From: Persicirhabdus sediminis
Lineage (GTDB): Bacteria > Verrucomicrobiota > Verrucomicrobiia > Verrucomicrobiales > Akkermansiaceae
Length of the DNA stretch: 36,710 nt
Direction of reading: 5' to 3'
Assembly (NCBI RefSeq): GCF_016595495.1
Contig: NZ_JAENIM010000027.1
Coordinates: 1 to 36,710, forward strand
A program made the translations under genes and the position numbers. The notes under the pieces are model-generated. The model was not told the origin of the DNA. It ran no database searches and worked only from the letters and a program-made list of their open reading frames with translations. Positions 7,650-28,800 of this stretch are shown here, in pieces; positions within the stretch are counted from its first letter, which is position 1; every line of letters begins with the position of its first letter.

Positions 7650-8525
7650 ATGCACAAAGGAGAATTTACTAACTCAACATTTATTCGCAGACTCGAAAGC
7701 TTGTACTTGCTAGCACGTAAAGTGCTAGGAGGCACACTACAAGCTGACCGTAAAAGTACCCGTAAAGGCGCTGGGGTCACCTTTGCCGATTATGCAGAGT
7801 ATAACCATGGCGATGACTACCGAGCAATCGACTGGCGAGTCTATGCTAGATTTGATGAACTTGTTATCAAATTGTTTGAGCTCGAAGAAGATGCTACTAT
7901 TTACCTGCTTTGTGATTGTAGCCACTCCATGGCGTCCAAACAAAAGACGGCCCTAGAGCTCAGTGCGGCACTTGGCTACATTGCTTTAAACTGTCAAGAT
8001 AGGCTAGCAGCCTATAGCTTGTCTGATAAATTAGAGCCTATCATCGAGCCTACACGTGGCCGAGCTAAAGTATTACCATTTCTAAAAGCCCTAGAACAAA
8101 CTAAGACGCACGGCGAAGACACCCATTTCACCCGCTGCATCAAATCCCTACAGGCGCGCCATCGCAAGCGCGGCATGGTGATCGTCATCTCCGATTTCTT
8201 ATTCCCTCGTGGATACGAAGAAGGCCTGAAACTACTTCAGTGGCACGGCCACGATGTATTCTGTCTACAAGTCCATGACCCAAAAGATCTACAATGTGAT
8301 TGGAAAGGCGACCTTCAGTTAGAATGCATCGAAACAGGGCAAAATCAAAAAGTAACCATCACAAAAAAAGAAGCCGAAGCCTATAACAAGGCGATGGCTG
8401 ACTGGAATGATCAGCTCCGTAAAGAGTGTGCCAAGCGCGGTATCGGGCTAGGCACCTTGACCAGCGAGCACGCATTTGATCAAGTGATTTCCAACATCCT
8501 GAAACGAGGAGGACTGGTAGCATGA
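7650..8525 (+). CDS. DUF58-domain protein (MoxR partner, VWA-like fold)
   Basis: The 291-residue protein carries the DUF58 signature YNHGDDYRAIDWRVYAR at about 51-67, followed by LVIKLFELEEDATIYLLCDCSHSM. The last part gives an intact DxSxS metal-site motif (Asp89, Ser91, Ser93), and a later VIVISDF strand carries a further acidic residue. No signal peptide or transmembrane segment is evident, so it should be cytoplasmic. In MoxR operons DUF58 proteins normally sit between the ATPase and VWA membrane proteins, as here. Its last four bases overlap the start of the next gene (ATGA), indicating translational coupling. The ATG at 7650 gives the full domain and lacks a Shine-Dalgarno. Its molecular activity is not known even in better-studied homologues. 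Confidence 0.92.
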   Translation: MHKGEFTNSTFIRRLESLYLLARKVLGGTLQADRKSTRKGAGVTFADYAEYNHGDDYRAIDWRVYARFDELVIKLFELEEDATIYLLCDCSHSMASKQKTALELSAALGYIALNCQDRLAAYSLSDKLEPIIEPTRGRAKVLPFLKALEQTKTHGEDTHFTRCIKSLQARHRKRGMVIVISDFLFPRGYEEGLKLLQWHGHDVFCLQVHDPKDLQCDWKGDLQLECIETGQNQKVTITKKEAEAYNKAMADWNDQLRKECAKRGIGLGTLTSEHAFDQVISNILKRGGLVA

Positions 8526-10285
8526 GTTATCTGAATCCACTATGGCTCTGGTCATTATTAGCAATCATTCCGCTAACAGCCATCTATTTCCTCAAAGTTA
8601 GACCTAAAAAACAGCCCACTAACGCCTACTTCTTATGGCAAAAAGTCTTTGCTGAGAAACGCTCATCAGCGCTATTTCAACGATTACGAGATTTGTTTTC
8701 TCTCCTGCTGATGCTGCTTGCTTTTGCGGCCGTAGCTTTTGCATTAGCTCAGCCGCGCTGGGGCGACGAGAAGCAAACAGACATGCTCATTATCATTGAT
8801 ACCTCGGCCTCTATGCAGGCAGGGAATAATGCCAATAGCCGCATCCAGCTAGCCAAAGATAAAGCTACAGGGATTATCAGATCCCTAAACGGTGAACATC
8901 GCGTCGCTCTAGCAACTATTGATAAACAGTTAAAGTTTCTCACTCACTTAAGTGATAACCCAAAAGTTCTGGTCGAGCAGATTAAACAGATCAACGCATC
9001 TGACATGCCTCTCAATGCTCAGGCTGCTAGAAGTTTAGCTAATTACAAACTATCAGGTGATTCTAGCGCGCATAGAATTATCTTCATCACAGACGGGTCT
9101 AGCCAACTGCCAGATTTTGACGAAAAAATAGAACTCTTCGCGGTAGGATCTGAAATAGAAAACCTCGGCATCACAGCAGCTGACCTACAGTGGGTACCTG
9201 GCCGCAACGGTACCGCAAGTTGCTATCTGAAAATTGAAAATACCTACAAAAAAGATATCTCTACTGAGATAGAGCTGCGTCACCAAGAATCTGGCGTCAT
9301 CGCAAAGTTAATTCCTCTACAGCTACAAGCTGGCGAAAAATTCGAACAGATTATTGATTTTGATATGGCTGAAGCTGGCATTTGGACGGCTAGTATTAAT
9401 CAGAAGGACGACTTCATGTTAGACAATGAAGTAATCATGGGTCTCAACCCACAGCAAACAATCTCAATTGGCCTAAAAGTCACCACTCCATGGTTTTTCG
9501 AGAATTGTGTGAACGCATTTGCTCGCACTAACGGTCTACTTCAAATCGACTCAGAATCACCACAAATCACACTAGTCGAAGGCTCTACAGATACAGAAGA
9601 GAGCAATTTACTTATTTTCAATCCGCAGCAGCAATCTCAATGGTGGACGTCTATCGGCGAGCCCTTGGATGATATCATTATCGAAACTGAAGATGGCGAA
9701 CACCCTCTAACTCAACACTTAGATTTCGATATCATGGGCTTCCCTGCCGCCAAAAGGCTCAGTGCCCCTGAAGACGCGCAAGTCTTTGCATTTAACCATG
9801 ACGGTACACCTCTGCTCTATAAATTACGCAGGGGAAATCAAACTGCTGTAGTCGTCAACTTGGATCCGTCCGAGCAGAACTTCTTTCTATCACCATGGTT
9901 CCCAACCATCATTCACAGTGCTACAATGCATCTAGCGGGTAGAGAATCTAGCCTCGCTCCAGTCTACGCTACAGGGACAAAAATCACCCTCCCTGGTAAT
10001 AGCGAGCAAGCCGAAATCATCCATAACAATGAGGCTTCAATAGTAGCGGCACAAAGTCAAATTGAGCTAAATAATTCTGCAAGTTACAGATATTCTGCAG
10101 ATGATAGCGAATGGAACTTTGGTGTGAGTCTGCTGTCAGCTGATGATAGCCAGTTGGCTATTATTGACGCCGTGTCCAGTAGACAATTAAGAACCGGTTG
10201 GCCTATTTCAGTTTGGCTAGTCGTAATTGCCCTACTCGCATTAACGTTAGAGTCTATCCTCTATCATCGCCGTAAATTAGGCTAA
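8522..10285 (+). CDS. BatA-type VWA membrane protein
   Basis: The 587-residue protein starts with the BatA N-terminal membrane module: NPLWLWSLLAIIPLTAIYF (TM about 7-24), the basic VRPKK, then a second TM (about 58-77). A VWA domain follows with the metal-ion site IIDTSASM (Asp93, Ser95, Ser97) and HRIIFITDGSS. The middle (about 215-540) is beta-rich, possibly periplasmic. It ends with a TM at about 560-580 and a basic tail (YHRRKLG), a topology that anchors it at both ends. It overlaps the DUF58 gene by 4 bp, so the two are co-translated. It probably presents a VWA domain at the membrane for MoxR-dependent assembly; this role is inferred from family and neighbourhood. Confidence 0.88.
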   Translation: MSYLNPLWLWSLLAIIPLTAIYFLKVRPKKQPTNAYFLWQKVFAEKRSSALFQRLRDLFSLLLMLLAFAAVAFALAQPRWGDEKQTDMLIIIDTSASMQAGNNANSRIQLAKDKATGIIRSLNGEHRVALATIDKQLKFLTHLSDNPKVLVEQIKQINASDMPLNAQAARSLANYKLSGDSSAHRIIFITDGSSQLPDFDEKIELFAVGSEIENLGITAADLQWVPGRNGTASCYLKIENTYKKDISTEIELRHQESGVIAKLIPLQLQAGEKFEQIIDFDMAEAGIWTASINQKDDFMLDNEVIMGLNPQQTISIGLKVTTPWFFENCVNAFARTNGLLQIDSESPQITLVEGSTDTEESNLLIFNPQQQSQWWTSIGEPLDDIIIETEDGEHPLTQHLDFDIMGFPAAKRLSAPEDAQVFAFNHDGTPLLYKLRRGNQTAVVVNLDPSEQNFFLSPWFPTIIHSATMHLAGRESSLAPVYATGTKITLPGNSEQAEIIHNNEASIVAAQSQIELNNSASYRYSADDSEWNFGVSLLSADDSQLAIIDAVSSRQLRTGWPISVWLVVIALLALTLESILYHRRKLG

Positions 10286-10304: not shown

Positions 10305-12812
10305 ATGGAGTTTTTCTCACTCACCCCTCTTTGGTGGCTATTAGTCATCATTCCACTTGCCATCGGATACGGTTTTTCTTTAGTCGACCGCCCTGCTAAA
10401 TTTAAAGTTCTATCGATCGCATGTCGAATCATCGGCATTGTATTGTTAGTGCTAACTTTATGCAGGCCGTTCATCAAAAATGAAACAAAATCCGTACATG
10501 TAAGCTTTCTGATCGATGGCTCGGAATCAGTCGACCCTGAATCCATGAAGACGGCACTGGCTCATATCGAATCTAGCATTGCGAGCCTAGATTCGGGTGA
10601 TAGTCATTCACTTTTCATTTTTGCCTCTGAGCTAAAAGAAATGCAGCCAGATGAAATTAAAAAATTCATCACCAGCTGCGAGCAAGGAGTGTCTGATGCT
10701 AAGTTCAGATCATCAACAGATCTAACACAGTCCTTACTCAGCGCGCGCATGAGTTTTCCTGCTGGTAAATCTCGCAGGTTAGTTGTGTACACAGACGCTG
10801 CTGCCACCACCTCTGGTCTAGAAGACGCCCTAGCAACACTCAAGAGCGAGCAAGTAGATCTCTTTCTAAATCAAATTGAGCCATTACAAAAACCCGAAGC
10901 GGCACTGGTTTCTATCGAGCCAGCGTCACTAAACGCATTTCAGAATGAGATTCTACGCATCAAGGTAACTAGCCAGTCCAATAGCGACATGGCAGGGCGA
11001 TTACGAATCCTGCACAAAGGTGTCGCTGTGACTGAGCAAACAATCCAGCTAGAGGCCAACACACCTACTATCAGTTACGCTGACGTAGAAATGACAAGCT
11101 CAGGTGCCAGCCACTGGCAAGCTGAGCTGATTCCTGAGCGAGATTATTTCCCGCTGAACAACAAGCTCTCAACAACGATCAAGGTAAAAGGTCAGCCTAG
11201 AGTGTTAGTCATCCACAGTCAGAGAGAGAAGCTAAGGTCATTCTCTCGCGCGATGGCAAAACAAGGCATCGATATGGATGTTCGTGGGGCACGTGGATTA
11301 CCCGAATCACTAGAGGCAATGCTAGCCTTTGACGCCATTATACTAGCCGACGTTCCAGCTACAGACCTAATGGTAAACCAAATGGAAAACCTCAAACGCT
11401 ATGTTAGCGAGTTTGGCGGTGGCCTAGCCATGATGGGCTCAGAGAACTCATACGGACTTGGCGGCTATTACAAAACGCCAATTGAAGAGGTCATCCCCCT
11501 AACTTCTAGATTTGAAAAAGAGAAACAAAAACCATCTCTATCCATGGTATTAGTACTTGATAAATCAGGTTCCATGGAAGGAACACCAATGGAGCTAACC
11601 AGGCAAGCGGCCAAGGCAGCTGCCGAGCTACTAGGCTCACGTGACCAGATTGCGGTCATCGGCTTTGACAGCAACCCAATGGTTGTCTGCGAAATGACCT
11701 CAGCAGGCAATAAAGTACAAATCATGAACGCCATTGATACTTTGGGAGCATCTGGTGGCACCAATATGTTTCCAGCGATGGTGCAGGGATATGACATGCT
11801 GCAAGCTGCTAACACAAAGATCAAGCACATGATCGTCATGACTGATGGACATACTCAGGAGGCCGATCATATCTCGCTAACTCAGCAGATGGTAGATTCA
11901 GGCATTACGGTATCATCAGTAGCTATGGGTTCAGGGGCTGACGCAAACTTGCTAGAAGAGATAGCTAACTACGGAAAAGGCCGCTTCTACCAAACTGATG
12001 ATCCAGCCAACGTGCCGCAGATTTTTACAAAAGAAACCATGCAGGCTTCCAAGTCAGCCATCAAAGAAGACCTTTATGGCTCAGTCATCACGGGTGATCA
12101 TCCCGTACTAACTGGTTATGAACAGACCGAACTGCCAATGGTATTAGGATTTGTAATGACGAAAAGTAAACCTACTTCTGAGCTATTACTTGTGACCGAA
12201 ACGGGTGACCCACTGCTGGCGATTAATAGGTTCGGCTTGGGCACAGGTCTAGCCTATACATCAGATCTCACTGAGCGCTGGGGCGGTGAGTGGTTAGCTT
12301 GGTCTGGTGCTAGCAAGTTTTGGGCACAAGTCATTAGAGGCATCCTCAAGACTGAAGATGATACTGGGCTCAGCATCGTGCAAGATATCACAGACGACCA
12401 GTGGCGCATTGAAGCTAGTCACAAAGGTCTCAATGGTGCGCCGGTGAACGGCAGCCAATGGACTGCTGAAGCTATCAACCAAGATGGCAAAAAACTGGCA
12501 ATGGACATCTCGCAAACAGGCATCGGAAAATATGCGGGTTCGCTTGACCTGCATGGATCTAACGCCGTGGCTTTGCGCATTCAAGACACTGACCACGACA
12601 AGGTGAAAACGCTCTACTGGCAGCGCTCCTATCCCGCCGAATATCAACTCGGAGGGAAAACCCCGGAGATCCTAACATCATTACCGAGTATCAATGCTGA
12701 ATCCATTCGAGAAAATCTCATTAAGCATTACCGGCATCAAAATATCACTCCATACTTTGCCCTGCTAGCATTTGCCTTTCTCATTACAGGCGTTGTCCTG
12801 CGCAGAGTCTAA
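10305..12812 (+). CDS. Large VWA membrane protein with a glutamine-amidotransferase-like segment
   Basis: The 835-residue protein has two N-terminal TM segments (about 7-25 and 35-53). A first VWA-like domain follows with a variant metal site FLIDGSESVD (Asp71, Ser73, Ser75). Residues about 300-400 (RVLVIHSQREK to GGGLAMMGSENSYGLGGY) look like the class I glutamine-amidotransferase-like fold often inserted in such proteins, but no catalytic Cys is seen where a nucleophile elbow would be. A second VWA domain has a perfect MIDAS, LVLDKSGSM (Asp419, Ser421, Ser423). A single C-terminal TM ends LITGVVLRRV. Two VWA domains in one chain next to a separate BatA-type protein suggest a composite membrane platform. 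The gene starts 19 bases after its neighbour and ends 50 bases before the first giant TPR gene. Confidence 0.85.
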   Translation: MEFFSLTPLWWLLVIIPLAIGYGFSLVDRPAKFKVLSIACRIIGIVLLVLTLCRPFIKNETKSVHVSFLIDGSESVDPESMKTALAHIESSIASLDSGDSHSLFIFASELKEMQPDEIKKFITSCEQGVSDAKFRSSTDLTQSLLSARMSFPAGKSRRLVVYTDAAATTSGLEDALATLKSEQVDLFLNQIEPLQKPEAALVSIEPASLNAFQNEILRIKVTSQSNSDMAGRLRILHKGVAVTEQTIQLEANTPTISYADVEMTSSGASHWQAELIPERDYFPLNNKLSTTIKVKGQPRVLVIHSQREKLRSFSRAMAKQGIDMDVRGARGLPESLEAMLAFDAIILADVPATDLMVNQMENLKRYVSEFGGGLAMMGSENSYGLGGYYKTPIEEVIPLTSRFEKEKQKPSLSMVLVLDKSGSMEGTPMELTRQAAKAAAELLGSRDQIAVIGFDSNPMVVCEMTSAGNKVQIMNAIDTLGASGGTNMFPAMVQGYDMLQAANTKIKHMIVMTDGHTQEADHISLTQQMVDSGITVSSVAMGSGADANLLEEIANYGKGRFYQTDDPANVPQIFTKETMQASKSAIKEDLYGSVITGDHPVLTGYEQTELPMVLGFVMTKSKPTSELLLVTETGDPLLAINRFGLGTGLAYTSDLTERWGGEWLAWSGASKFWAQVIRGILKTEDDTGLSIVQDITDDQWRIEASHKGLNGAPVNGSQWTAEAINQDGKKLAMDISQTGIGKYAGSLDLHGSNAVALRIQDTDHDKVKTLYWQRSYPAEYQLGGKTPEILTSLPSINAESIRENLIKHYRHQNITPYFALLAFAFLITGVVLRRV

Positions 12813-12862: not shown

Positions 12863-13882
12863 ATGAATAAAAAACTCTTTGTCCGTCTATCATCTAGTCT
12901 TCTATTTGCCAGCCTATCGCTCGCTCAAGCTGATGAGGCAGCTGACCAGCCAGCCGAGGCAGTTGAAATCAATGCCAAAGCAGCCAAGTACCACAAGGTG
13001 CTGAGCAAACGACCAAATTCAGGCCACGTCTTTGATCGCTTTTGTGATGCATGGTTAGACACTCACTCCAACCAACAGCTAGAGGCCTATCTCATTGCAG
13101 CAGCAAATGACAAATCCCCTGCTAGCCAGCTGCTGCTGGCCTACTTCTACCAGCGTCAAGGTGAAGACCATAAAGCCCTAGAGGTGCTCAAAAAATCGCT
13201 GATAGACCACCCAGAGAATCAAGCGATCCGCATCCAACAGGCGAAAACTCTAGCCAAGCTACTCGCCTTTGATGCCGCCGTCGCCGAGCTCGATATCGCC
13301 GCCAAAACTGCTGAACACGATGACAAGTTAGAAATCCTCCAGCTAAGAGGGAAATTCCTCGCCCGCTGCGGTCGTTATGAAGAAGCTCAGCAGACTTGGA
13401 CGGAAATTCTAAAAACCGACGCCAGCGACGAGGAACTGGTAGAAAACATCCTCGAAGCACAAATTGCAGAAGGGCTGTTCGAGCAAGCGCTGGCCACCTC
13501 AGACATCCAGCTGAAACAAACTCGCGATGCCTATCAGAATGTGCTACACACACTGCGCCGCGGTGACATCTATCAACGCTCTGGGGACGTGCAAAAAGCC
13601 ATTGATACGTACACCAGCACGCTAGACAGCGTGGGCGAAGGCAGCTGGCTGGAACGCGAAATCCTCGCCCAGCTACATGAAATTTTCCGCCGAGATGACG
13701 ACTTTGAATCACTGGTAACGCTTTACGAGAAACTAACAAGTGAACACCCACAACGTGTCGGCATCAAAAAAGCCCACACCCAGCTACTTTCCCAGCTAGA
13801 GCGTCACGACGAAGCTGAAACTTTGCTCAGAGAGATTCTCAAGATCACACCCGGCGACCGCTCCAACCGCGAAGAGCTCATC
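12863..13882 (+). repeat. Near-identical 1-kb block shared by the two giant TPR genes, copy 1
   Basis: These 1020 bases match 21792-22811 at about 95% by my eye count (roughly 47 differences, six amino-acid changes). Similarity begins within one base of the ATG, because the upstream sequences are unrelated, and stops abruptly at codon 340. Beyond it the genes diverge strongly even where protein motifs are conserved. Most differences are synonymous. Confidence 0.9.
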
Positions 13883-16800
13883 AATATTTTAGCCAAAGCA
13901 AGAAAGTACCATGAAGCGATCACTGAAATCAAAGCCCTCTTAGAGCTTGCACCAGATGATTCAAAATTATGGCTAACGCTAGCAAACATCTATCATCTAG
14001 CGAATCAATCTGACGAGATCTCAGCGAGTTTGGCGAAATACCTCGAACTGGAAGATCATAGTGAAAACAGCTACCTGACGGCAGCAAGCTTAATGGTTAA
14101 ATATGAGCTCTTTCAGCAAGCTGAACAATACCTCACTGCAGCTGCTAAGAAATACCCAGATAGCATCGAATGCAAAAAAAGCTACGCTAGGCTTCTAATC
14201 AAGCTTGATAGGAAAGATGAAGCTATCGCCATTTGGCAGGACCTCATCCTCACTGGATCCAAAGATACAGTGATGCGTCAAACTCAGACTTTACGCTCAA
14301 TCGGAGAAGCTGAACTTTCATACGAGTTACTACAAAAGCGGGCAGACGAGTTCATGACCGACATCAACTTTGCCAGCTACGTCTGTAATCAAGCACGACA
14401 ACAAAAAGATTTAGATTCCGCAAAAATATGGGCGTACCGAGTGCTCAAACTAGCAAAACACTTTGACGAAATAAGACAATCAGTCGCTCTAACTAGCAAA
14501 GTAATCGTGCAAGCTGATGCGGAGCTAGCTGAAATCAATCACCTCGAGAATATCGACTCAGCTAGCATTGCCGAGCTCTGGCTGCTAGCAAGGCTGCAAG
14601 AACTTCAAGCTGAATCAAGCAAAGCATTGGAGACACTTCAGCGTATCAGAGAGCAAGATGAAACCATTGCGTTCCTGGCGACTGCTGACTTTTATGAACA
14701 ACGCGATGAAATCCAACTCGCATGCGAGGTGCTCGAACAGCTAATCGCTAGCCCAAAAGGAAAACGTCCACTATACATAAAACAGATCGTTAGACTTTAC
14801 CGTAGCATTGAAAATCACGAGGCTGCTTTGAGCCATATAGCAGAATGGAAAATCCTCGCTCCTGGAGAAAAATTCCCATGGTTTATAGAGGCTGAGATTT
14901 ACCAGCTAGAGAATCAATTAGAAAAAGCAGTCAGTACTTTGGCCAAGGCATCCTTGCTATTTTCAGACGATAACGCAGACATCAATAACAAGCTCGCATC
15001 GGTATATGAAAGTGACGCACAGTTTGCTAACGCTAAACGTATTTACTGGAAACTCTACGAACAGGCTGAAACATCAAACCAGAAGCTGAGTTATATCCCC
15101 TCTCTAGCGCGTGTAGCCGACCATATGGGACAGACACAAGAGCTGCTAGAAAGTTTCACCGAAAGACGTAAATCTAATGAAAGATCCGTTGAACCTATCT
15201 TAGCCTTAGCCGAAATTCATCGCTTCAATGAAGATTACGAAGAGCGCAGGAAATTCATGATAGAGGCAGCTCAACTGCGCCCTGATGACGTCAAAATCCT
15301 CCATCTGATCGCAGATATCGAAGAGCGCGAAGGTGATGTTGAACGCGCTATTCAGACTTTAGACAGAGCGATCAAAGTAGATAAATCTAGCAAAAGCAAA
15401 CAACTGCTAGCTGAGGTATACATGCGTAACTATGAGCTCGAAAAAGGCATTGGCATATTACATGAGTTGGAAATTGGACTCGACTCTAATCCGAGGCAAA
15501 TTGAGAAACTAACACTATCTATCGCCAGTAATGGTGATTACGAGCTAGCCTTAAATTATTTGGCTGAGCACCGCATCCAACATGCTGATGACTATCGCCT
15601 AGCATTCCTGCAGGCCAAACTTCAAATAGAACTCGCGGAACCAGAACTGGCTATTCAATCCCTCCTTGAAGCGCGCGCTATACAAAGTGAAATCGACAAG
15701 CTAACGCCACTAATTAGTGATGCTTCTTTCAAAGAGCAAAGTCAACAAATGGCTAATTTCACTGGTACATCTGAGGACTACATCGTCTACGACTCTCTGA
15801 GTCGCTTAATTTTCAATAATCGGTCTAATAGACAAGGAGGCCCTAGCTTAAGCACGCTTCCAGGTAGCCTAAAAGAAAAAGATGCCTTTGCAGAAGCAGG
15901 CATCATACTCCTACTTGAACAAACTGATGATGAGAAAGTTAGCCAATTGGCAAAAAATCTAAAAGCTGAAGGGTTATATAAACTAGATCTGCGCCGTGAG
16001 TTGATGAAAATGTGGCATTCAAATAGCGGAGATGTTAGTTCATTGAAAGAATTCGCTCTAGCACACCCAGAGGAGACCGTAGCACTGGCTCTCGCGGCAA
16101 GCTTTGAAATCATCATGGCTTCCTTTAAAGAAGGACAGATAGACGAAGAGTTTTTAGCCTACGTGAATAAGCACCTTGATGGCATGCCGACCAATACTCG
16201 CATCATGCTAACTGGTAACTTTTTATGTTATGGTGAAGACCAAAACAATCCCTTGGCTTGGAAAATGTATTTAAATGATATCGATTTAGAAAAAGTCGAT
16301 CATGATGCCCTAGCTACGACATTCACTTTCATCACAAGTCAGGCAAAAACAAGAGAACTCAGTACCGAGGTCCGCTCACTAATCAACGACTTCGCTCTCA
16401 AAATTGCTTTAAACAACGAGGGAAAAACTATCTCCTGGTTCATGCGTACTCAACTGATTACTAACAGCCTCCTATTAGCTATCGAAACAGAAAACGCAGA
16501 TGACTTCATCGCCCTCACGAACAATATTTTGCATGAATATGATGCGAAGAAAGCGGCAAACCAAAATCCGTTTTCGCATAGGTCACGACACAATACTAAT
16601 GGCTTCTCAGTTCCTGAGTTTCCACCAAAAATCATTACAAACCTCCCCCTCTCTTTGCTAGGCCTAATTCAGCAAAACGAGCAATCTACTTATTTCAATA
16701 TGGGTGACTACAGTGACGTATCACTGAATGAGCTGAGCTTAAATTCAATACAGATTAGACAGGTTGAATCAGATAGGCTTCAGCTTTTGTTAGCCCATTT

Positions 16801-19800
16801 CTATAAAAATGAGTCGCTTACAAAATCATTAATCGAAGCCCTTGAGTCCTCAGAAAAACTAAGCTTTTCTGATTACCAATACCTGGCTGGCTACTACTGC
16901 AAAAGTGATCGAGCAAAGGCATTAGATTTACTGATTCAGGCTAACCAATTAGGCTTAACTAGAGCCGAACGTAAACAGCTAGATCAACAGATTGTCGCCA
17001 TAGCGTTAGAACTCAAAGAGTCTGATGAGCCTAACTTCACCAGCAGATCTGATAGAGCCAAACAAGCTGCTCTCAGGCTTAGACGCCAACGGTGGGCAAA
17101 CGCTGAGGCCAGAAACTATCTTATCTCAGCACTTGAATCATTTGGGCTGCAAAAAGAAGCCGATCTAGAAACGATCAAAAATAGTCCAAAATCGAATTCG
17201 TATTCAAGTAGTCGTCAGCATACACAAACAAATACTCAAGATCTCATTAAAGAGCTCGAAAGTGCACTGGCTGACAAGAACCAAGACAAGCTAAAGCGTC
17301 TCATTGTACGCGAGTTGCGTCTATTAACAAAAGCCAATGTCGATTGGCAATACTCTAGAAGGCAGGAGAATTTGGTCAAATTTATCCAGCAGCGAAAGCT
17401 TGAGGATAAGGTCAAAAAATTCATGCACCCAAGCGAGGATAGCTCTAATCAAAAAGTCGTTGAGTACGCACTAACATTAGATCTTTTGGGAGAACGTCAG
17501 GAAGCGCTCGAAAAACTCGATCCCATCATTAAGGAAGGTAGCAAAGACCAAGACCTATTGCTTCGCTATGTGATTATGCTGCCAACGGATCGCTCCTCTG
17601 AAGCGGCTGAGATTATCGTGAATCGCATACAGAGGAGTAAGCATGATTCACTCGCTAAAATGCTAGAGTCAGCATTTGATCGAGCCGAAGATGAAAGCTT
17701 GGAGAAGTGGATGAACATTACCCAAGTCTGTGTCGAGTCATTAGAGCTGGAACAGAAATCCAATAACAGAATCCAAGCTAGCTGGCCTAATCGTCTGATT
17801 GGAAACTTCACTACGAGCTTGCGCTACGACAACCTAACTGTTCCTTCAATCTTAAGCAGTGAATACCTAATCACCAATAATAAAGACGAACTAGAACTGC
17901 GACAGCAAAAACTTAAAATTAGCAGAGATTTCCTCAAACTCTGCATGAACTTCAGCAGCTCCGCTAAAGATGCATTCAAACAATATCATGCCAGCCTAAT
18001 AGCCACTAGTGAACTCGATCAGCTAGACATCAAAATAGCACAATTGGCACACCTAACATCAATACAAAAGAACCAAGGCAATACTTATGCTTACTACAGC
18101 TCGTCAGATACTAATAAAGGGAAGACACCAATAGAATATCTGCTCGCTGAAGCTATTCAAGCAGGCTCAGATCAAGCCTTCCCTGCTGAACATCTAGAAA
18201 AAATTACCCGCAGCAACAAACCATACTCGAAGGCTCTGATAGAAGCTATTGAGAAAATTGATGCTAACGATGATGAATTCGAAGCCTATCTGAAGGCAAA
18301 TATTAACGATAAGTTAAACTATAGCGGTTCAGATACCAAAAGTGATTTAGCGCTTAAACTATGTCTAGCAAAAGGCCAGCGCAGCAAATCACTGGAGGGC
18401 TTATGGATGAACTACGGTGAGATTAAGTCCAACCAAATGAGAATGCATCAATATTCTCAAATGCTTCAAACACAATCACCTTCCTATATTGCTTCTCATC
18501 TACCGAGTAATAGTGATGACATGCGCCTATTACTAGAAAAGGTAATAGAGAACATCATTCTCCCGCGTGAAGATATGAGCGCATTTCTAGCTGAAGAGAG
18601 AAAAAATGACTATCAACAGAACAAAATCACAGATTACCAGCGAGTCTCCATGCTAACGGAATGGCTCTCATTAATTGCCCAGCACACCAACAGCCTAGCT
18701 GAAAACGCGAATTTTCACCGACTGCTGATAGATTTAGGCATACCTAAGAAGATCTTAAGCCATTATGAACTCTCAGAGAATTTACCTAGTCAACAATTCA
18801 CCACACTTAATGAACTTCTAGCTAGCTATGACACAGCTGGTTTTGGAGAAATGCTCACTGATGAAGAGCTCATGATAGCTGGCTCAGGAGCCTCCGCTTA
18901 TTACGGCATCGATCTCTATCTAGATCATATAGGTGACCAAGTAACAACTTCGCAGCTAGTCAATAAGAGCTTGATAGAATCAGAACTGAATAAACAAGCT
19001 GAGCATCATCAAGTCTTCCTCCGCTGCGTATGTCTTTATACAAAAGCACCTTCCAAGAAGAAACAGCGCTGGGTAGTAGAGTTAATGAATGCTCACCATC
19101 AGCACCTGTCAAAACTTTCAGCTGAAGGTACCATTTGGTTTACTAGCTCTATCCTAACTAAAGCTATAGATATTAAATCGAAGCCGAACCTTAAGGGGCT
19201 AACACCCGAAGCTAGCAATTGCCTCCACGCCCTACTCAACAAGTCTAATGAAAAGTCAGGCGAGCAACTCAGTGAGCTATTAGAAAAAGAGCAATTATTT
19301 ACTAAGAGCGAGCTAGAGAGCACACTGAATACCTTTGAAAAAGGCGCCTCCAGCTTATACCAAAAAGACAAGCAGGCCTATTTCAGCATGGCTTCAAAAC
19401 TCGTGCGTTCAGCTAGAAAAATTGACTCTGAAATTAAATTAGATGACTACGGTCATCCGATATTTGGTCAATACCAAAAGAATAATGAAGCCGATACGAT
19501 CACTAAGATTGTTAATTCGGTGAAATCTAAGCAAATTGGCACACACGCTCAGATGCTCTCAGAGTGGTTAAATGACCCCTCAGCTGCTGACATTGAGCTA
19601 AACCTCGCCATGATTCATGCGGCTGGTAAAGAGATTGCAACACTCAATTATGCTATCCACGGTAGTAGCTATTCGATGTGGAGACGCATGCGCGAATTCG
19701 AGCAAGTTGTCGAGCTCTATGAGGCGCTACCTCCAGAAAATGAAAAACTAAATGCTCTTATTCTCATGAGGTACTATCTCGAGCGTGTCGGCGTATGCCT

Positions 19801-21775
19801 TCATATACAAGAGGAATATCTCAATTATTGTGAGCAAAAACTCGCTGAAAAAGATACTCCAATTAGACGAGCCCTCTGCACAGGCATACTAGTTAACCTG
19901 ATAGAAAACTACGGTCCTGAATGGAGCGCCAAATCCGTGAGCCATGTTTCTCACTTTTACGAGTATTTTGATAACAAACAAGATCGCTTGCTATTCACCC
20001 AGATTCTAGCTGATGAAGGCGGTGACATTTTCCATTATGACAAGTTTGCTGAGCTTGCAGAATCTATCTTAATGGAGCAAGTGACAGCTCAGGGGCTAGA
20101 CGCTGTTAGCGCAAAATCTATCACTCGATTACTTCTAAACAATGCTAAGGTTAAGGATAAGACGAGCTACGCACAGCTCTTCACGCAAACCAAATCGCAG
20201 CTTCGTAAAGCGCGCAGCAATAATAGAAGGTCATCGTCTTCTAGCTCGGCTGTGAGGTACAATCAGGACTATGCAGGCGCTGAGCACTTCCTGCTAGCTT
20301 TGGCCTTAGCAAGCGGAGATAAAGATGATGTCAAGTACGTCTTATCAGCCTATAGCCCAGCTAAGCTGCAGAATAATCAATTTGTCACCTGCCTGCTGTT
20401 ACGTCACGGTCTAGTGGCTGAAGCACATAAAATCTGGGGCAACTGGAACTCTTCAGAGCAGCTCAACCTAACGATTACAGGCTCCAACATTGGCCTTTTA
20501 GATAGCGACCTAGAAAAATCACTAGAGGCTTTCGTTGCGCTAGATCCAGACGATTTTAACCGCCACGCGCTGCGTGACTACTACTTGATTAGGGCTCATG
20601 GATTGAATGCGGATACCCAGCCGTCGATTGGCTATGAGGCTATACACAAAGAATTTATCGAAGGTAAAATGGCTACCGCACCATATTCGATAGATACCAA
20701 AAAGACGTTGATGAATAGTCTGAAGCTCTATCCATACAATGAGAATTCAGCCAGGTTAGATAACAAAAACTGCGACAAACTCTTAGCCATTTCTAAAGAG
20801 ATCTATCAATATGAGCTAGATAAATACAAGGGCGGTATAAGAACTACGCGCGGCAATTCAAATAAAATTGCCGTAAGCATAGCACTTAAAGACATTTTAC
20901 TCACTCAAGGTGAGGAAAAGTACGTCGAAACCGTACTTGCTATCAACACTGAGAATAAAAAACAAAAAATTTACCACCTGAACTATTCATTGATAGCTGC
21001 GAACTATGTTCTACAAGATCGCCTATTTGATGCTATTCTAGCAGATGACAGAGCCGCTATTGAGAAGCTTAGAATTATTCTTAAACCTTTAGCTGAACAA
21101 TGCATGACTGACGGCTACTATTATGTCAGAGCATGGGTATTACCCGTTCCCCTCTACGGTATCGCCTGTGCCTATACCAACCACGCCGACGAGTTTAGCC
21201 AATTAGTCAAGGCACATGAAGAGCATACAAAAGATAAAGTCGTAGGAACCTATACCTATCTCGCCTTAGCCAACTCAATTTACAAGGGCGACAAACTCTT
21301 TGCTGAAAAGAACAGAGAGCTGTGTAAGCAGATTTTCGAAAAGCTCATCAGCTCATCCCATGATGGCTTGTTTGATAAAAAGTTCTTACCAGCTCACAAC
21401 TATAGAGGTCTGAGATATTATGAAAGCTGGGGTTGTCTACCTAGCGATTTCGTCATTGAGCTATACGATTACGCAATCACTCTGGATGCTAACAACGCTG
21501 ATCTACACAACGCAAAAGCTAAAATATATAGCAGAAACGGCAGTTATTCTGAAGCAGAAGTTAGCTATCGATCAGCGCTGCAAATCGCGCAAAAGCAGAA
21601 TAACAAACACCAGATTGGCTTGTTCATGTTTAGCATTGCCGAATGTCTAAAGCAACAAGGGCAAACAAAAGCCGCCATTGATTATGCTCAGAGTATTCCT
21701 GAGGATCATCGAAATAAGTTAGTTAAGAATAAACTCAAAACTGTCGTCAGTAAGTGGCAACAAGAAATCAAATAA
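12863..21775 (+). CDS. Giant exported TPR-repeat protein A (2970 residues)
   Basis: The protein begins MNKKLFVRLSSSLLFASLSL and AQA, a clear Sec signal peptide (cleavage near residue 23). The rest is almost wholly helical. Canonical TPR-like helix pairs are obvious to about residue 960 (ASQLLLAYFYQRQGEDHKALEVL; DDVKILHLIADIEEREGDVERAIQTLDRAI) and again near the C-terminus (DLHNAKAKIYSRNGSYSEAEVSYRSAL). The middle is diverged helical repeat. Ser-rich or polar linkers occur near residues 1440 and 2455 (RRSSSSSS), which divides the chain into at least three blocks. It is the sixth gene of the MoxR operon and has no Shine-Dalgarno. The next gene is a full-length paralogue; residues 1-340 match it at 334 positions, while the rest is far less similar. 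The likely role is an extracytoplasmic protein-interaction scaffold or client of the MoxR/VWA machinery. No enzymatic motif was seen. Confidence 0.85.
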   Translation: MNKKLFVRLSSSLLFASLSLAQADEAADQPAEAVEINAKAAKYHKVLSKRPNSGHVFDRFCDAWLDTHSNQQLEAYLIAAANDKSPASQLLLAYFYQRQGEDHKALEVLKKSLIDHPENQAIRIQQAKTLAKLLAFDAAVAELDIAAKTAEHDDKLEILQLRGKFLARCGRYEEAQQTWTEILKTDASDEELVENILEAQIAEGLFEQALATSDIQLKQTRDAYQNVLHTLRRGDIYQRSGDVQKAIDTYTSTLDSVGEGSWLEREILAQLHEIFRRDDDFESLVTLYEKLTSEHPQRVGIKKAHTQLLSQLERHDEAETLLREILKITPGDRSNREELINILAKARKYHEAITEIKALLELAPDDSKLWLTLANIYHLANQSDEISASLAKYLELEDHSENSYLTAASLMVKYELFQQAEQYLTAAAKKYPDSIECKKSYARLLIKLDRKDEAIAIWQDLILTGSKDTVMRQTQTLRSIGEAELSYELLQKRADEFMTDINFASYVCNQARQQKDLDSAKIWAYRVLKLAKHFDEIRQSVALTSKVIVQADAELAEINHLENIDSASIAELWLLARLQELQAESSKALETLQRIREQDETIAFLATADFYEQRDEIQLACEVLEQLIASPKGKRPLYIKQIVRLYRSIENHEAALSHIAEWKILAPGEKFPWFIEAEIYQLENQLEKAVSTLAKASLLFSDDNADINNKLASVYESDAQFANAKRIYWKLYEQAETSNQKLSYIPSLARVADHMGQTQELLESFTERRKSNERSVEPILALAEIHRFNEDYEERRKFMIEAAQLRPDDVKILHLIADIEEREGDVERAIQTLDRAIKVDKSSKSKQLLAEVYMRNYELEKGIGILHELEIGLDSNPRQIEKLTLSIASNGDYELALNYLAEHRIQHADDYRLAFLQAKLQIELAEPELAIQSLLEARAIQSEIDKLTPLISDASFKEQSQQMANFTGTSEDYIVYDSLSRLIFNNRSNRQGGPSLSTLPGSLKEKDAFAEAGIILLLEQTDDEKVSQLAKNLKAEGLYKLDLRRELMKMWHSNSGDVSSLKEFALAHPEETVALALAASFEIIMASFKEGQIDEEFLAYVNKHLDGMPTNTRIMLTGNFLCYGEDQNNPLAWKMYLNDIDLEKVDHDALATTFTFITSQAKTRELSTEVRSLINDFALKIALNNEGKTISWFMRTQLITNSLLLAIETENADDFIALTNNILHEYDAKKAANQNPFSHRSRHNTNGFSVPEFPPKIITNLPLSLLGLIQQNEQSTYFNMGDYSDVSLNELSLNSIQIRQVESDRLQLLLAHFYKNESLTKSLIEALESSEKLSFSDYQYLAGYYCKSDRAKALDLLIQANQLGLTRAERKQLDQQIVAIALELKESDEPNFTSRSDRAKQAALRLRRQRWANAEARNYLISALESFGLQKEADLETIKNSPKSNSYSSSRQHTQTNTQDLIKELESALADKNQDKLKRLIVRELRLLTKANVDWQYSRRQENLVKFIQQRKLEDKVKKFMHPSEDSSNQKVVEYALTLDLLGERQEALEKLDPIIKEGSKDQDLLLRYVIMLPTDRSSEAAEIIVNRIQRSKHDSLAKMLESAFDRAEDESLEKWMNITQVCVESLELEQKSNNRIQASWPNRLIGNFTTSLRYDNLTVPSILSSEYLITNNKDELELRQQKLKISRDFLKLCMNFSSSAKDAFKQYHASLIATSELDQLDIKIAQLAHLTSIQKNQGNTYAYYSSSDTNKGKTPIEYLLAEAIQAGSDQAFPAEHLEKITRSNKPYSKALIEAIEKIDANDDEFEAYLKANINDKLNYSGSDTKSDLALKLCLAKGQRSKSLEGLWMNYGEIKSNQMRMHQYSQMLQTQSPSYIASHLPSNSDDMRLLLEKVIENIILPREDMSAFLAEERKNDYQQNKITDYQRVSMLTEWLSLIAQHTNSLAENANFHRLLIDLGIPKKILSHYELSENLPSQQFTTLNELLASYDTAGFGEMLTDEELMIAGSGASAYYGIDLYLDHIGDQVTTSQLVNKSLIESELNKQAEHHQVFLRCVCLYTKAPSKKKQRWVVELMNAHHQHLSKLSAEGTIWFTSSILTKAIDIKSKPNLKGLTPEASNCLHALLNKSNEKSGEQLSELLEKEQLFTKSELESTLNTFEKGASSLYQKDKQAYFSMASKLVRSARKIDSEIKLDDYGHPIFGQYQKNNEADTITKIVNSVKSKQIGTHAQMLSEWLNDPSAADIELNLAMIHAAGKEIATLNYAIHGSSYSMWRRMREFEQVVELYEALPPENEKLNALILMRYYLERVGVCLHIQEEYLNYCEQKLAEKDTPIRRALCTGILVNLIENYGPEWSAKSVSHVSHFYEYFDNKQDRLLFTQILADEGGDIFHYDKFAELAESILMEQVTAQGLDAVSAKSITRLLLNNAKVKDKTSYAQLFTQTKSQLRKARSNNRRSSSSSSAVRYNQDYAGAEHFLLALALASGDKDDVKYVLSAYSPAKLQNNQFVTCLLLRHGLVAEAHKIWGNWNSSEQLNLTITGSNIGLLDSDLEKSLEAFVALDPDDFNRHALRDYYLIRAHGLNADTQPSIGYEAIHKEFIEGKMATAPYSIDTKKTLMNSLKLYPYNENSARLDNKNCDKLLAISKEIYQYELDKYKGGIRTTRGNSNKIAVSIALKDILLTQGEEKYVETVLAINTENKKQKIYHLNYSLIAANYVLQDRLFDAILADDRAAIEKLRIILKPLAEQCMTDGYYYVRAWVLPVPLYGIACAYTNHADEFSQLVKAHEEHTKDKVVGTYTYLALANSIYKGDKLFAEKNRELCKQIFEKLISSSHDGLFDKKFLPAHNYRGLRYYESWGCLPSDFVIELYDYAITLDANNADLHNAKAKIYSRNGSYSEAEVSYRSALQIAQKQNNKHQIGLFMFSIAECLKQQGQTKAAIDYAQSIPEDHRNKLVKNKLKTVVSKWQQEIK

Positions 21776-21791
21776 CCCTCATCTACACACT

Positions 21792-22811
21792 ATGAATAAA
21801 AAACTCTTTGTTCGTCTATCATCTAGTCTTCTATTTGCCAGCCTATCAATCGCTCAAGCTGAAGAGGCAGCTGACCAGCCAGCTGAGGTAGTTGAAATCA
21901 ATGCCAAAGCAGCTAAGTACCACAAGGTTCTGAGCAAACGACCAAATTCAGGCCACGTCTTTGATCGCTTTTGTGATGCATGGTTAGACACTCACTCAAA
22001 CCAACAGCTAGAGGCCTATCTCATTGAAGCTGCAAATGACAAATCCCCTGCTAGCCAGCTGCTGCTGGCCTACTTCTACCAGCGCCAAGGTGAAGACCAT
22101 AAAGCCCTAGAGGTGCTCAAAAAATCACTGGTAGATCATCCAGAGAATCAAGCGATCCGCATCCAACAGGCGAAAACTCTAGCCAAGCTACTCGCCTTTG
22201 ATGCCGCCGTCGCCGAGCTCGATATCGCCGCCAAAACTGCTGAACACGATGACAAGTTAGAAATTCTCCAGCTGAGGGGGAAATTCCTCGCCCGCTGCGG
22301 TCGTTATGAAGAAGCACAGCAGACTTGGACGGAAATTCTGAAAACCGATGCTAGTGACGAGGAACTGGTAGAAAACATCCTTGAAGCGCAAATTGCCGAA
22401 GGGCTGTTCGAGCAAGCGCTAGCCACCTCAGACATCCAGCTGAAACAAACCCGCGACGCCTATCAGAAAGTTCTGCACACACTGCGCCGCGGTGACATCT
22501 ATCAACGGTCTGGAGACGTGCAAAAAGCCATTGATACCTACACCAGCACGCTCGACAGCGTAGGAGAAGGCAGCTGGCTGGAACGGGAAATCCTCGCCCA
22601 GCTACATGAAATTTTCCGCCGAGATGACGACTTTGAGTCACTGGTAACGCTGTACGAGAAACTAACAAGTGAACATCCACAACGTGTCGGCATCAAAAAA
22701 GCCCACACCCAGCTACTTTCCCAGCTAGAGCGTCACGACGAGGCTGAAACTTTGCTCAGAGAGATTCTCAAGATCACACCAGGCGACCGCTCCAACCGTG
22801 AAGAGCTGATC
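21792..22811 (+). repeat. Near-identical 1-kb block shared by the two giant TPR genes, copy 2
   Basis: Partner of 12863-13882, offset by 8929 bases in the same orientation. The block encodes the signal peptide, the DEAADQPAE-type linker and the first TPR units. The end of near-identity lies just after the codons for REELI in both copies. Confidence 0.9.
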
Positions 22812-25800
22812 GAGATTCTACTGAATGCGGAGAAATTCGACGACGCCTTAGTGGAAATAAAATCCCTGATAAAGCTCCATCCTGAAGACGCACAGCTGTG
22901 GCTCACGCTAGCTAGAGTGCAACAGCAAGCTGGCCAAAAAGCCGAGCTCGAAGCTAGCTTACAAGAATACATCAAACTGAACGACAGCAGTGAAAATGCC
23001 TACCTAACGGCAGCTGAACTACTTCGTCAGTACAAACTTCCTGAATCAGCAGACAAGCTACTTGTTGACGCGATAGCGAAATTTCCAGCTAGCCTAGAAT
23101 GCCGTGATACCCATGCTCGTTTATTACTCAGCATGGATCGTCGAGATGAGGCCATCACTATCTGGTCGGAGATGATAGAATCAGGAACTCGCGATACGGT
23201 GATGCGCCAGACACAAACATTGCGCACTGCTGGAGAGGCAAAATTGAGTTACGAGCTACTACAAAAACGCGCTGACGAATTCAATACAGACATCAACTTT
23301 GCGACCTACGTCACCAATCAGGCGCTGTCCCAGAAAGACTATGAATCCGCAACAACTTGGGCTAACACTGTTTTAACCTTAAGCTCGCACATTGACGAGA
23401 TGCGCCAGGCCGTCTTGCTCAATTGCAAAGTCGCCATGCGCGCGCAAGACCTAACTGAAAGAATTGACCAGCTCAAACAGCTAGAAAATCCTAGCATTGC
23501 TCAACATTGGTTACTCTCACAGCTCTACGAGCTAGATGGCGAGACTGAAGCATCACTCGCAGAGGTTCAGAAAATCCACCAGCAAGATGAGATCACCGGT
23601 ATCCTTGCCGAAACAGACCTCTATGAAAACCGCGAAGATTATACCAACGCTGCGAAATCATTAGAAACGATCCTAGAAAAACCTAATGGCAAACGCCCCA
23701 TCTATCTGCGTCGCTTAGTCACTCTCTATCGCCAACTCGATGAGAGGGAAAAGGCGCTTGCCCATATCGAGACATGGAAACAACTAGCTCCAGGCGAACA
23801 AGGACCTTGGCTGCTAGAAGCTGATCTACACATGCATCGAGTAGGCTGGGAAAAATCCATTGTCGTGCTGCAGCGAGCCAGCCAGAAATTCTCCGATGAT
23901 AATCACGCCATCTTGATGAAGTTAGCTGAAATCTATCAGCGCGACAGCCAATACGCGCAGGCACAGCGTATCTACTGGAACATGTACGAGCGCTCTGAGG
24001 AGATGGATGACCGACTGAAACTGGTGCAAGACATCGCCAAAGTGGCTGAAGAGCAAGGGCGCATGGATGATCTCATCGCCACCTTCCAAGAAAAACGTAG
24101 TGGCAATCGCAAGTCTGTAGAGCCATTGTTAGCGCTAGCTGCAATCTATCAATTCAACGAAGACTACGAAGAGCGCCGTAAGGCCATGCTTGAAGCGGCT
24201 CAACTAAAACCTAACGATGTCAAAATTCTCCACAGCATCGCCCAGCTAGAAGAACGTGAAGGCGATATTGATAGAGCTGAAAATACACTGCAACGTGCGA
24301 TAAAAATCGACAAAAGCGAGAGCAGCAAACAAAAGCTCGCTGAGCTCTACCTCAAGAACGAAGAGGGAGAAAAAGGTCTCGCCATCTTGCAAGAACTTCA
24401 CGGTGTCCAATCGGCTGACGCTCGAGAGTTAGAAAAAGCCACATTAGCCATCGCCAATTCAAACGAAATCGAAGCAGCGCTCACCTTCATAGACGACGCA
24501 CTGTTAAGATTTCCTAACGACTATCGTCTATCGTTTCTCAAGGCGCAGCTGCTCTACTATGAATCTGATTATGATGATACAATAGAACAACTGCTGGGCA
24601 CCTTACAGATTAACGAAGAAATCGAAAACGCAACAGCTATACAAGAAGAAGAATACTGGAAACGATGGCTGGGTGACCATACGAACCCAATCACGGCTAC
24701 TGACAATACGAATTTTGATTGGAGGGCATATCATATCATGCCTAACAAACAAAACCGTCGAGGCAGAATTTTTGACGGCCAACTGCCAGGCCACCTATTC
24801 GAGAAAAATGGGTTATCAGTAGGAGCTATCCTCAGCTGTATTGCTAGACTTGATGATAGTGAAAAAGCAAGCTGGATAAGCAAATTGGAGCAACAAGGGT
24901 TTAAGGAAGTCGAGTTCCGCTCCCTGATAGCATACAGATACCTAGCAAACAGTCTCGAAAATGATGAATTACAAAAATTTTTAGAGCTTAACCCCGAACA
25001 CACAGGAGCGATGGTTAAATGGCTTCAAAAGCAAGATTCATCATTTGAATATGGAAAACGGATACAAAACGCTGCGGAAATCGACATAAAAAAGTGTTTC
25101 GAATACTATAAAATTGTTAGCATTGATGACAAACACAAAGATGATTTGAAGTCCTTCGAGCATGAATGGCGCTGGATGCAGCTATATTATTCAGATGACA
25201 AAGACTCCTTAGAAAAATGGCAACAAACGCTACAAGAGCATCAAGATCATATAAATAACGAGGTTAAAGAAGATAAAAAAGTCACTCAGCTAGCGCCCCC
25301 CTATCATCTAATGAACAAAGACGTTCAGGAGGACATTCGTGATCTACTCATTACTGAAATCCTCAAAGACTTTGCCCATGAAGAAAACTACCAACACCTA
25401 GCGAATTGGCACGACGAGCTTCTCCTTCTAGGTCATTGCGCGCAGCCAGGTCGTGAAAAATTGCTGGCTGATTATATGGTACAAACCACTAAAGTCTATC
25501 AGCATTTCCTCGCTAATAGGAAATCCAACCAATATTACCCGTGGAAGTACCAAATCATGACAGGCTACCGCGAAGCACTCATCGCGCTGCCAGCTTACCC
25601 GCCGAAGTCAGGGTCAAAAGTGCCTCCGCACCTATGGATATTAGCAGATGAAAAACTGCTTGCAGATAATGTCAGTAATATAGGAGGCAAGAAGCCAACC
25701 CTACTGAGCGAGCTGGAGATTGAATTTCCAGCTGAAGTAGAAATTGAGCCGCAACTGCAGCTGCTTCTTGCGAGTTCACAAGGCAACGAGGAGTTAGAAC

Positions 25801-28800
25801 AAAAAATTATTGCCGAGATTGAGCAGAATCACCAATGGGAGTTAGGCGACATCATGCTGTTAGTTGGCTATTATGCCAAACAAGAACAATATGACAAAGC
25901 CATGCAGCTGTTACAAAAAGCACGTTATCAACCGCTGAAAAGCGATCAACGTAAGAAGATCGACGGCAACATGGTAGCTCTAGGGCTAACGATGATAGAT
26001 GACGGCGAATACGAAGGAGGCGCCGAACTCATTGAGGCAAAACGAGCGGCTCTGAGATTACGCAAATCTCGCTTTGAGCAAAGCGATGATAAAAAACAAC
26101 TGATCACCTTGCTAGACCATTTTGGTCTCCATCGCGAGGCCGATCAATTTGCTGCCAAAAACCAACAACAGCAGAATAATTACTCATCGGCCCAAACCAT
26201 GAATTATGAACAAGAGTTCATTGATGCAGTTCGCGATGGCAAAGAAGATAAAATCAAGCGACTCGCTAACAAAAGGTTTAAAGCTCTCATTAGGGGCAGT
26301 ATCAAACACTCTACCATGAAGGACAGGAAAGCCTTCCGGGAATTGGTAAAAGAAAATCAGCTAGAAGAACATCTCACCAAGTCGATTACAGCTGGAGAAA
26401 GCTCGTCAAAGAGAAAACAGGCTGATGATGCAATTGGGCTGTTCATTTTAGCTAAAAATGACGAGGCCTATCAGAAGATGAGCTCCTTAGTTCGCACTGG
26501 CAGCAAGGACCATGAACTGTTAGCCAATTGGCTCTTTTTAATCAAAGATGAAGATATCGAACTAGCTGGTGAAATCGTACATAAAAGACTGCAATTTTCT
26601 AGTTATTGGCAATTAGCCCAGCTCTTAGACCTTTTATTAAGAGCTAGCAGCGAGGGAGATACCCATCATCAATTCTTCAGGCTATTGACCATCTATAAAA
26701 ACTATTTCGACTCGACTGATGGCAAAAATAACCAAGGTCAGCGAGAGCTTGTCTATGCATATGAAAATCTCAATCGACAGCTTTTTTATAATTCACGAAA
26801 ATGGCAATACGATCTTTTATCTCCATTAGCTGACGATTATATAGAAAAACTCGAAAAATGCAAAAACGACGAAGAGAGGGAAATCAATCTGCAGTATCAG
26901 AGCGTCCTCATTGATTTATTGTTAGCAACAATGAAGCAGCCCGTCCTAGCGGAAGCGAGCTTCAATGCCCTGCATGCGATGCATGCTAATACAGGTACAC
27001 TCGACCAACTCAACAGAGAAGTCGCTTTGCCAGCTCTATTAAATCATTTCAAAGCGCTAAAAAATGCAGATTCTGTTGCCAGCAATAGCTACCTTAGAGG
27101 CAAGGCTCAATCGCTGATGCAATTACCGCTCGCCTTCCTCATTGACGAAGCTCAAGAAAATGGTGGACCTATTGTTAGCTCCGACGAACTCAGCCAGATC
27201 AAAAAAGTTAACGCTAAAGCGGCCGCATTTATAGGGCAACTAGATGGATTATTAAATGCCGAAGCCAGTGAACTTGAGGCGATGCTGCAAACTATCATTT
27301 CCAATAAAGACAATAAGAAGATAGCAGGACTATCTGGTATCATGCTGAAAATCTGCGCGGAAAAATCTCACCTGAGCCCAGCGGTCAATGACTACTTAGT
27401 TCGTTCTGATAGGGCGAATGTAAAATCAAAATATGACGGTGATTATTCTTCACTACTACAAAATCTAGCTAGCTATTTCCCTCTGTTAGCGGACCATCTC
27501 TCTGAGAGCGAACTAGAGTCATGGCTGAATCAACTCGCCCACTCACTGGCGATGTGCCAAACAGATCTAGCCGCCTACCTGAGAAGCGATAATAGTTCCT
27601 ATAGCCAAGGCCAAGTTTCCCACTATGAGAGGAAAGCTGCATTTCTTAAGCTGATGGCGAAGCTGAATGAAGACACCTCAGGCTACTACAATTTCTCCAT
27701 CCTCAGAGTCCTTCACGATACAGGCCAACCATTAGAATATTCAGTTAGAAAAATAAGTAGCTCCTTCAATACCGACTCTATCAAAACTGCAGATGATCTG
27801 GTGGAGGATATTGTACTTCATCAAATAACTAATTTAAGCACGGCCAAATACTTAGCGATTGCCCAAGAGAAGGATGAAAAAACCAATCCGCTAGAGAGCT
27901 ACATTGTCAAGCTGAGGAAAAAAATCCGCCGCAATGACAAAGGTGAAGGCATTCAGGTGAAAGACCTGCTCGCTGCCGCAGAAGGCAAAAGTGCGGAAAC
28001 TCAGTTCATTGTCCGCGCGCTATGCCTCACTGAGTTCGACAACCATGAGAAAAAGCAAGCGGCGCTGCTGTCTATGCTAGAAAACCACGCCGATATCTTT
28101 GCGCAGATGGATTCGGTTGTAGGGCTCTGGGCCTACCATTTCTTGATTAGAGACGGTTTGGGATTATCAGGAAATGATACCTTAGAGATTCCTGCTAGCT
28201 ACAGCGATAAGGCCAAGAAGGTCATCCACCAGTTAGTCGAGCTGGGTAAAACCGAGGCAAAAGACAAAATTGCCCAAATGCTCTTGTACAACAAAGTAGA
28301 CGATGATGACGAGCTAAAGGGCCATATCAGTGATTTGCAGAAATACACCAACCAGCTAGCGGAAAGTGATCGCGACTTGCTCACCAAAACAGCCGGTCAT
28401 CTGCTCAAGCTCAGCAGAGATTACCAAAATGCCCGTGAGAAAGATAATTACTATCATCCATTGCTAGGCTCTCACCATAACAACAAGTACACTAACGACA
28501 TGCGTGAGTTAGTGAGCAGCTATCCAGCGCGCCAGGCTGGTGACCGTCTCAAATACTTACACGACATTCTGCAAACTGACCCGCTGAAAGGTAATAAGCT
28601 AAGCTTCTCAGACACGGCCGCGGCAGCGGCTGAGGTGAAGACCATCTACACTGTAATCTTCGATCAGAACAAAACAGATGACGAACGCTTAGACCAACTG
28701 GCTCAGCTGATAGCTGATTACTCAGCGCTTCCGGCGGAGCTGCAATCCACAATGATTCTCAGCATGGTTAGAACGTTCCTCTACGATACCAAGGGCAGTT

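Follow-up and report, generated by a model that had tools for sequence, protein, structure and literature searches.

The window, i.e. the whole 36,710-nucleotide stretch of DNA analysed here (Persicirhabdus sediminis, family Akkermansiaceae, contig NZ_JAENIM010000027.1), carries two giant genes in tandem, A and B, which are preceded by genes for, in order, a C10-type peptidase, a 554-aa protein, MoxR, DUF58, a BatA-type VWA protein and a VWA/GATase1-like protein (Table 1). A domain search gave TPR matches near both ends of A and of B, and each product opens with a hydrophobic, signal-like stretch, as read from the sequence; the two are probably exported giant TPR solenoids. Their first 340 codons form a block for which a search of the genome gave no copies beyond these two (assembly 96.66% complete).

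The MoxR, DUF58 and BatA-type VWA genes are adjacent, which is the arrangement of a MoxR-DUF58-Bat operon, and their homologues also lie together beside giants in relatives; we take the gene row to be akin to the MoxR-vWA operons of the Bat/DUF58 type. Among 74 distinct loci of relatives, many of which are cut by contig ends or by the ends of the fetched segments, a giant adjoins a homologue of the 554-aa gene in 25 (19 and 6 in two surveys). The giant comes before the 554-aa gene in all 25 of these loci, whereas in the window the giants follow the VWA/GATase gene. Members of the giant family were detected in 56 of 386 genomes of the order (E up to 1e-40) and in 16 of 288 genomes drawn from the phylum (E 1e-60), the window's own genome being counted in both; a contig scan of genomes for relatives of A and B gave 14 loci, all with 30-38% identity. 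Among open-licence papers, none was found that deals with these giants or describes gene conversion among them.

Table 1. Coordinates of the giant genes, their segments and the preceding gene row
Feature	Position	Strand	Description
Peptidase C10 domain protein	2425-4677		Head of the gene row; N-terminal Inhibitor_I69-like stretch just under the Pfam cut-off
554-aa operon protein	4907..6571	+	No Pfam or NCBIfam match at E 0.01; homologue adjoins a giant in relatives' loci (counts in text)
MoxR-type AAA ATPase	6592..7587	+	PF07726, E 4e-62
DUF58 protein	7650..8525	+	PF01882
BatA-type VWA protein	8522..10285	+	PF07584, PF13519
VWA + GATase1-like protein	10305..12812	+	PF00092, PF07090
Gene A	12863-21775	+	2970 aa
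A codons 1-340	12863..13882	+	Probably converted block, likely recipient; signal-like stretch and first TPR helices; 95.4% identity to B block; GC3 0.541, codon usage B-like, unlike rest of A
Block right-hand edge in A	13880..13882	+	Support interval codons 338-340; predicted to lie mid-helix
A codons 341-2970	13883..21775	+	Diverged remainder, giant TPR protein; pS ~0.8 vs B, 55% nucleotide identity in codons 341-940; TPR matches
A-B spacer	21776..21791	.	16 bases; unlike the spacer before A
Gene B	21792-30794	+	3000 aa
B codons 1-340	21792..22811	+	Probably converted block, likely donor; 95.4% identity to A block; GC3 0.515, near rest of B (~0.50)
B codons 341-3000	22812..30794	+	Diverged remainder; TPR matches

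Divergence between A and B along their length

Over codons 1-340, A and B align without gaps and differ at 47 of 1020 nucleotides, distributed over the three codon positions as 2, 2 and 43, with six amino-acid differences (L20I, D24E, A33V, A79E, I114V and N226K). When codons 1-940 were searched for a single maximum-likelihood change point, it was placed at nucleotide 1016, with a 2-unit interval of nucleotides 1013-1020, i.e. codons 338-340; the difference rate changes there from 0.045 to 0.450, and the gain in lnL is 303, whereas 300 shufflings of the codon columns gave at most 12.9. Among codons at which the amino acid is identical, the fraction that differ is 0.12 (of 330) in codons 1-340, 0.58 (of 146) in codons 341-640 and 0.59 (of 141) in codons 641-940. 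In windows of 40 codons, pS ranges from 0.04 to 0.34 within the block, reaches 0.48 in the one spanning the edge and is at least 0.50 beyond it. A search for a further step inside the block gave a change point that was not significant (365 of 500 shuffles reach it), and an origin of the block from several superposed tracts was rejected on this result.

The first-pass annotation had described a block of about 95% identity with six amino-acid differences, which starts at the ATG, ends abruptly and is followed by synonymous divergence even in conserved peptides, and all of this holds in the counts given here, including those for the peptide that it named, DTVMRQTQTLR (codon 468 in both genes), where 7 of 33 bases differ, all of them silently. 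A smooth silent-site profile, which would have spoken against its reading, was not found; the profile has a hard step. An abrupt step in silent divergence between otherwise homologous paralogues is the mark of a conversion tract.

On the left side, 4 of the 10 and 19 of the 60 bases upstream of the two ATG codons match, and the local alignment of the 60-base upstream sequences is no better than that of shuffled ones (424 of 500 shuffles score as high). Since the spacer between A and B is without similarity to the spacer before A, the homology between the two genes ends at the ATG.

The base composition of the block differs between A and B in its relation to the rest of the gene. GC3 of the A block (Table 1) exceeds that of the rest of A (~0.42) and lies outside the range of A's other 340-codon windows (0.379-0.476). 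In leave-one-out log-odds of codon usage, the A block falls below all 58 overlapping windows of A, none of which is as B-like; the B block is ordinary for B, with 11 of 58 windows lower. Among 60 genes of relatives, none matches A in the excess of GC3 in the first 340 codons over codons 941 to the end. Because the A block has B-like codon usage, B is the probable donor and A the probable recipient; a recipient with donor-like composition is what a non-reciprocal transfer leaves, and composition is an indirect indicator of it.

Other giant pairs and segment trees

Thirteen within-genome pairs were treated alike, the silent difference in codons 30-290 being compared with that in codons 345-880. 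In the window pair, it goes from 0.13 to 0.58. No comparable drop in the first part is present in the tandem pairs of genomes G368, G339, G334, G294, G309 and G302 or in five dispersed pairs (first part 0.41-0.69, second part 0.41-0.66); the tandem pairs of G309 and G302 are not mutual closest paralogues and are accordingly weaker controls. The tandem pair of G462 also shows no drop (0.64 in the first part vs 0.51 in the second), and in G167 and G168 the dispersed paralogues have remained distinct. G263 (codon 346, 0.54 to 0.66) and G309 (codon 372, 0.52 to 0.65) have weak change points that run in the direction of the window's but without near-identity. Change points above those of the shuffles also occur at codons 18-61 in G368, G339, G259, G168 and G167, and in these the first part is the more diverged one.

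Homogenised 5' ends were found in 3 of 10 tandem cases, namely, the window, G268 and G021, and in none of the other 7. These ten cases are neighbours seen on one contig, a set that is no census and to which more may belong: several of the family searches gave scores for a subset of candidates (two of them for 2 per genome, two others for up to 31-32), and the tandem fragments of G330, with N-termini broken by contig ends, were left out. In the tandem pair of G268, the silent difference goes from 0.36 to 0.56 with a change point at codon 285 (lnL gain 51.8 vs at most 9.1 in 200 shuffles), and the similarity extends upstream of the ATG, with 33 of the last 45 bases matching. G021 has at least five related giant copies (L031-L035, L109). 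Contig ends coincide with the heads that these copies share; a single pair, on contig C109, is directly visible as neighbours, and the array is deduced from contigs ending inside shared heads. In the ten pairs of five of these copies, the silent difference is 0.08-0.23 at A-coordinates 540-735 and 0.14-0.36 at 736-925; at 980-1250, it is 0.28-0.52 in the 6 of 10 pairs that are measurable, three of which involve L031, where the alignment slips. A further copy in this genome, on contig C106, has ~60% nucleotide identity to the others and is not homogenised. The right-hand ends thus differ from case to case, lying at about codon 285 in G268 and at codon 340 in the window and being graded to about 930 in G021, and the same limits do not recur independently in relatives.

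Between genomes, nine of ten orthologue pairs have similar pS in codons 30-340 and in codons 341-640, the exception being copy two of G168/G167 (0.13 vs 0.36). The operon-linked giants L093 (G168) and L095 (G167), which are orthologous, are 96% identical in codons 30-340 and 88% identical in codons 341-640, a difference between head and rest that is seen between genomes.

Trees were built for three segments from 66 sequences, with the window's genome as the one genome of its genus, and A and B are sisters with a support of 1.0 in all three. The protein distance between them is 0.013 in codons 30-340, 0.906 in codons 341-640 and 1.042 in codons 641-940, so that, with relatives in the trees, the distance in the tract is far below that in the flanks, as conversion would leave it. 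In the clade of G368, G339, G334 and G294, the eight sequences of the tandem pairs group together, and the copies of each genome are 0.60-0.83 apart in the same block; therefore, homogenisation is no fixed habit of the giant family. The dS of the A/B block is ~0.20, close to the values for the orthologous heads of G167 and G168 (0.14 and 0.19), which indicates that the event was not recent.

In the trees, the A/B head lies closest to L036, from a record labelled Pirellulales, and to L025, whose genome belongs to a different family of the order. This nearness to sequences outside the window's family may reflect transfer or an old paralogue.

Codon 340 and the architecture of the giants

The annotation had further proposed that conversion was limited to an N-terminal module, maintained as an interchangeable docking or export domain. 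In the AlphaFold2 model of residues 1-950 of A (mean pLDDT 87.1, pTM 0.52, 15 sequences), a continuous helical solenoid is predicted to span residues 38 to about 940, with codon 340 inside predicted helix 333-345 of the unbroken TPR solenoid. According to the model, the edge is not a structural boundary, and the tract does not correspond to a structural unit of the kind that conversion maintains in TLR1/TLR6. In most within-genome pairs, identity is fairly high up to about residue 900 and then drops; for the ten orthologue pairs, the segments up to 930 have dN/dS values of 0.018-0.193, and codons 941-1090 have values of 0.114-0.339. From these profiles, the main boundary of the conserved part lies at about 930, not at 340. 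For the A/B block itself, dN/dS is 0.027 (codons 30-340) or 0.039 (codons 1-340), just below or within the orthologue range of 0.031-0.116 for codons 30-340, and hence no special maintenance of the block is needed.

A module with a boundary at codon 340 was rejected given the mid-helix edge and the late fall of conservation. With these two observations, the differing ends in other genomes and the ordinary level of selection, we abandon the maintained docking or export domain. What survives of the proposal is the recombinational replacement of the 5' kilobase, which is supported by the silent step, the trees and the control pairs; its description as a self-contained module does not.

Origin and significance of the shared head

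The best reading of these data, and in our judgement a highly probable one, is interlocus gene conversion of ~1.02 kb long after A and B diverged. A and B would descend from an old tandem duplication of a gene for a giant TPR solenoid that is probably exported, and a later non-reciprocal recombination would have copied the stretch from the start codon to codon 340, most likely from B into A. The left edge would lie where the homology between A and B stops, and the right edge would be an ordinary tract end, within a predicted TPR helix beside the well-conserved motif ITPGDRSNREE. Since the conversion, the two copies would have gained ordinary, mostly silent substitutions under the strong purifying selection that is usual for this end of the protein. 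The 5' placement may reflect that the heads, unlike the tails, stay similar enough to recombine. Against this reading stand the seven tandem cases and the C106 copy of G021 that are not homogenised, as well as the small change points of G263 and G309.

Nearly the same footprint would be left by an unequal crossover in a three-gene array, whereby a hybrid with the head of B and the tail of A formed and the original A was then deleted. Such a crossover yields the same identity step, and copy number does change in the family, as seen in G021 with its related copies sharing heads, two of them adjacent. However, this history requires a further event whose deletion breakpoint falls at the ATG, given that the sequence before A is unrelated to that before B; we consider it unlikely and infer conversion rather than crossover plus deletion. 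It is quite unlikely, too, that a third copy, now lost or missing from the assembly, served as donor or that the head was acquired horizontally: GC3 of the block (0.52-0.54) is slightly above that of both remainders (0.42 and 0.50), and an assembly of this completeness could lack a copy, but none was found in the genome, and the codon usage of the block fits B's own windows.

That the window makes up one entire contig in an assembly of 47, and that contigs of G021 break inside its shared heads, might suggest an assembly artefact in which strain variants of one head were joined to two tails. Such an error is very improbable here: there are 47 differences between the heads, the reading frame is kept at both joins, protein homology runs across codon 340 in A and in B, and the estimated contamination is 0.03%. 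The least plausible account dispenses with recombination altogether and invokes extreme constraint at the DNA level on the first 340 codons, which are indeed strongly conserved at the protein level in the family. Constraint alone was rejected on the silent-site values of the controls, that is, the high first-part differences of the 11 control paralogue pairs and the level pS of nine of the ten orthologue pairs, which contradict it unless such constraint were peculiar to this genome.

Comparison with known systems, as set out in the parts of the papers cited, places the favoured conversion reading among related cases. Partial gene conversion between paralogues is described for RF1 and RF2 in bacteria, in opposite directions in its two cases; like A and B, these are long-diverged bacterial paralogues with conversion confined to part of the gene, whereas the RF1-RF2 tract is nearly the whole domain of a function common to both proteins and the A/B edge cuts a predicted helix (PMC4530459). 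TLR1 and TLR6 of mammals are likewise tandem paralogues that are converted at one end and diverge at the other, with independent conversions, but the tract limits are almost identical in nine species, whereas those of the giants differ and were found in 3 of 10 tandem cases (PMC2077338). The tufA and tufB copies of Salmonella, unlike A and B, are nearly identical throughout and 762 kb apart; the tracts there are limited by the ends of the repeated gene, and the same rule fits the left edge of the A/B block at the start codon (PMC5485169). Gene conversion between bacterial paralogues is also described for PE_PGRS17/18, a tandem pair, and other paralogues of M. tuberculosis, in this case as within-species events in other gene families (PMC1762029, PMC13061034). 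As to the setting, vWA-MoxR conflict systems resemble the window operon in that MoxR and VWA proteins are encoded together and some components have TPR regions; the window operon differs in having DUF58, which is absent from the main text of that paper, BatA-type proteins and a 3000-aa TPR solenoid (PMC7159879).

The process seen here is an ordinary one, in a well-bounded example: A and B offer a clean, controlled case of partial conversion between long-diverged bacterial paralogues. A broader and rather doubtful possibility is that tandem giants are at times re-headed by recombination from at or just before the start codon, which would provide a common head for one and the same partner (the MoxR-VWA machinery, perhaps) and leave tails of ~2000 residues free to diversify, the head being kept by conversion and not as a fixed domain cassette. 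Dating by the N-terminus of such tandem genes makes the duplication appear much younger than it is. In this family of ~3000-residue TPR solenoids beside a MoxR-VWA operon, the tandem copies make the evolution of head and tail measurable.
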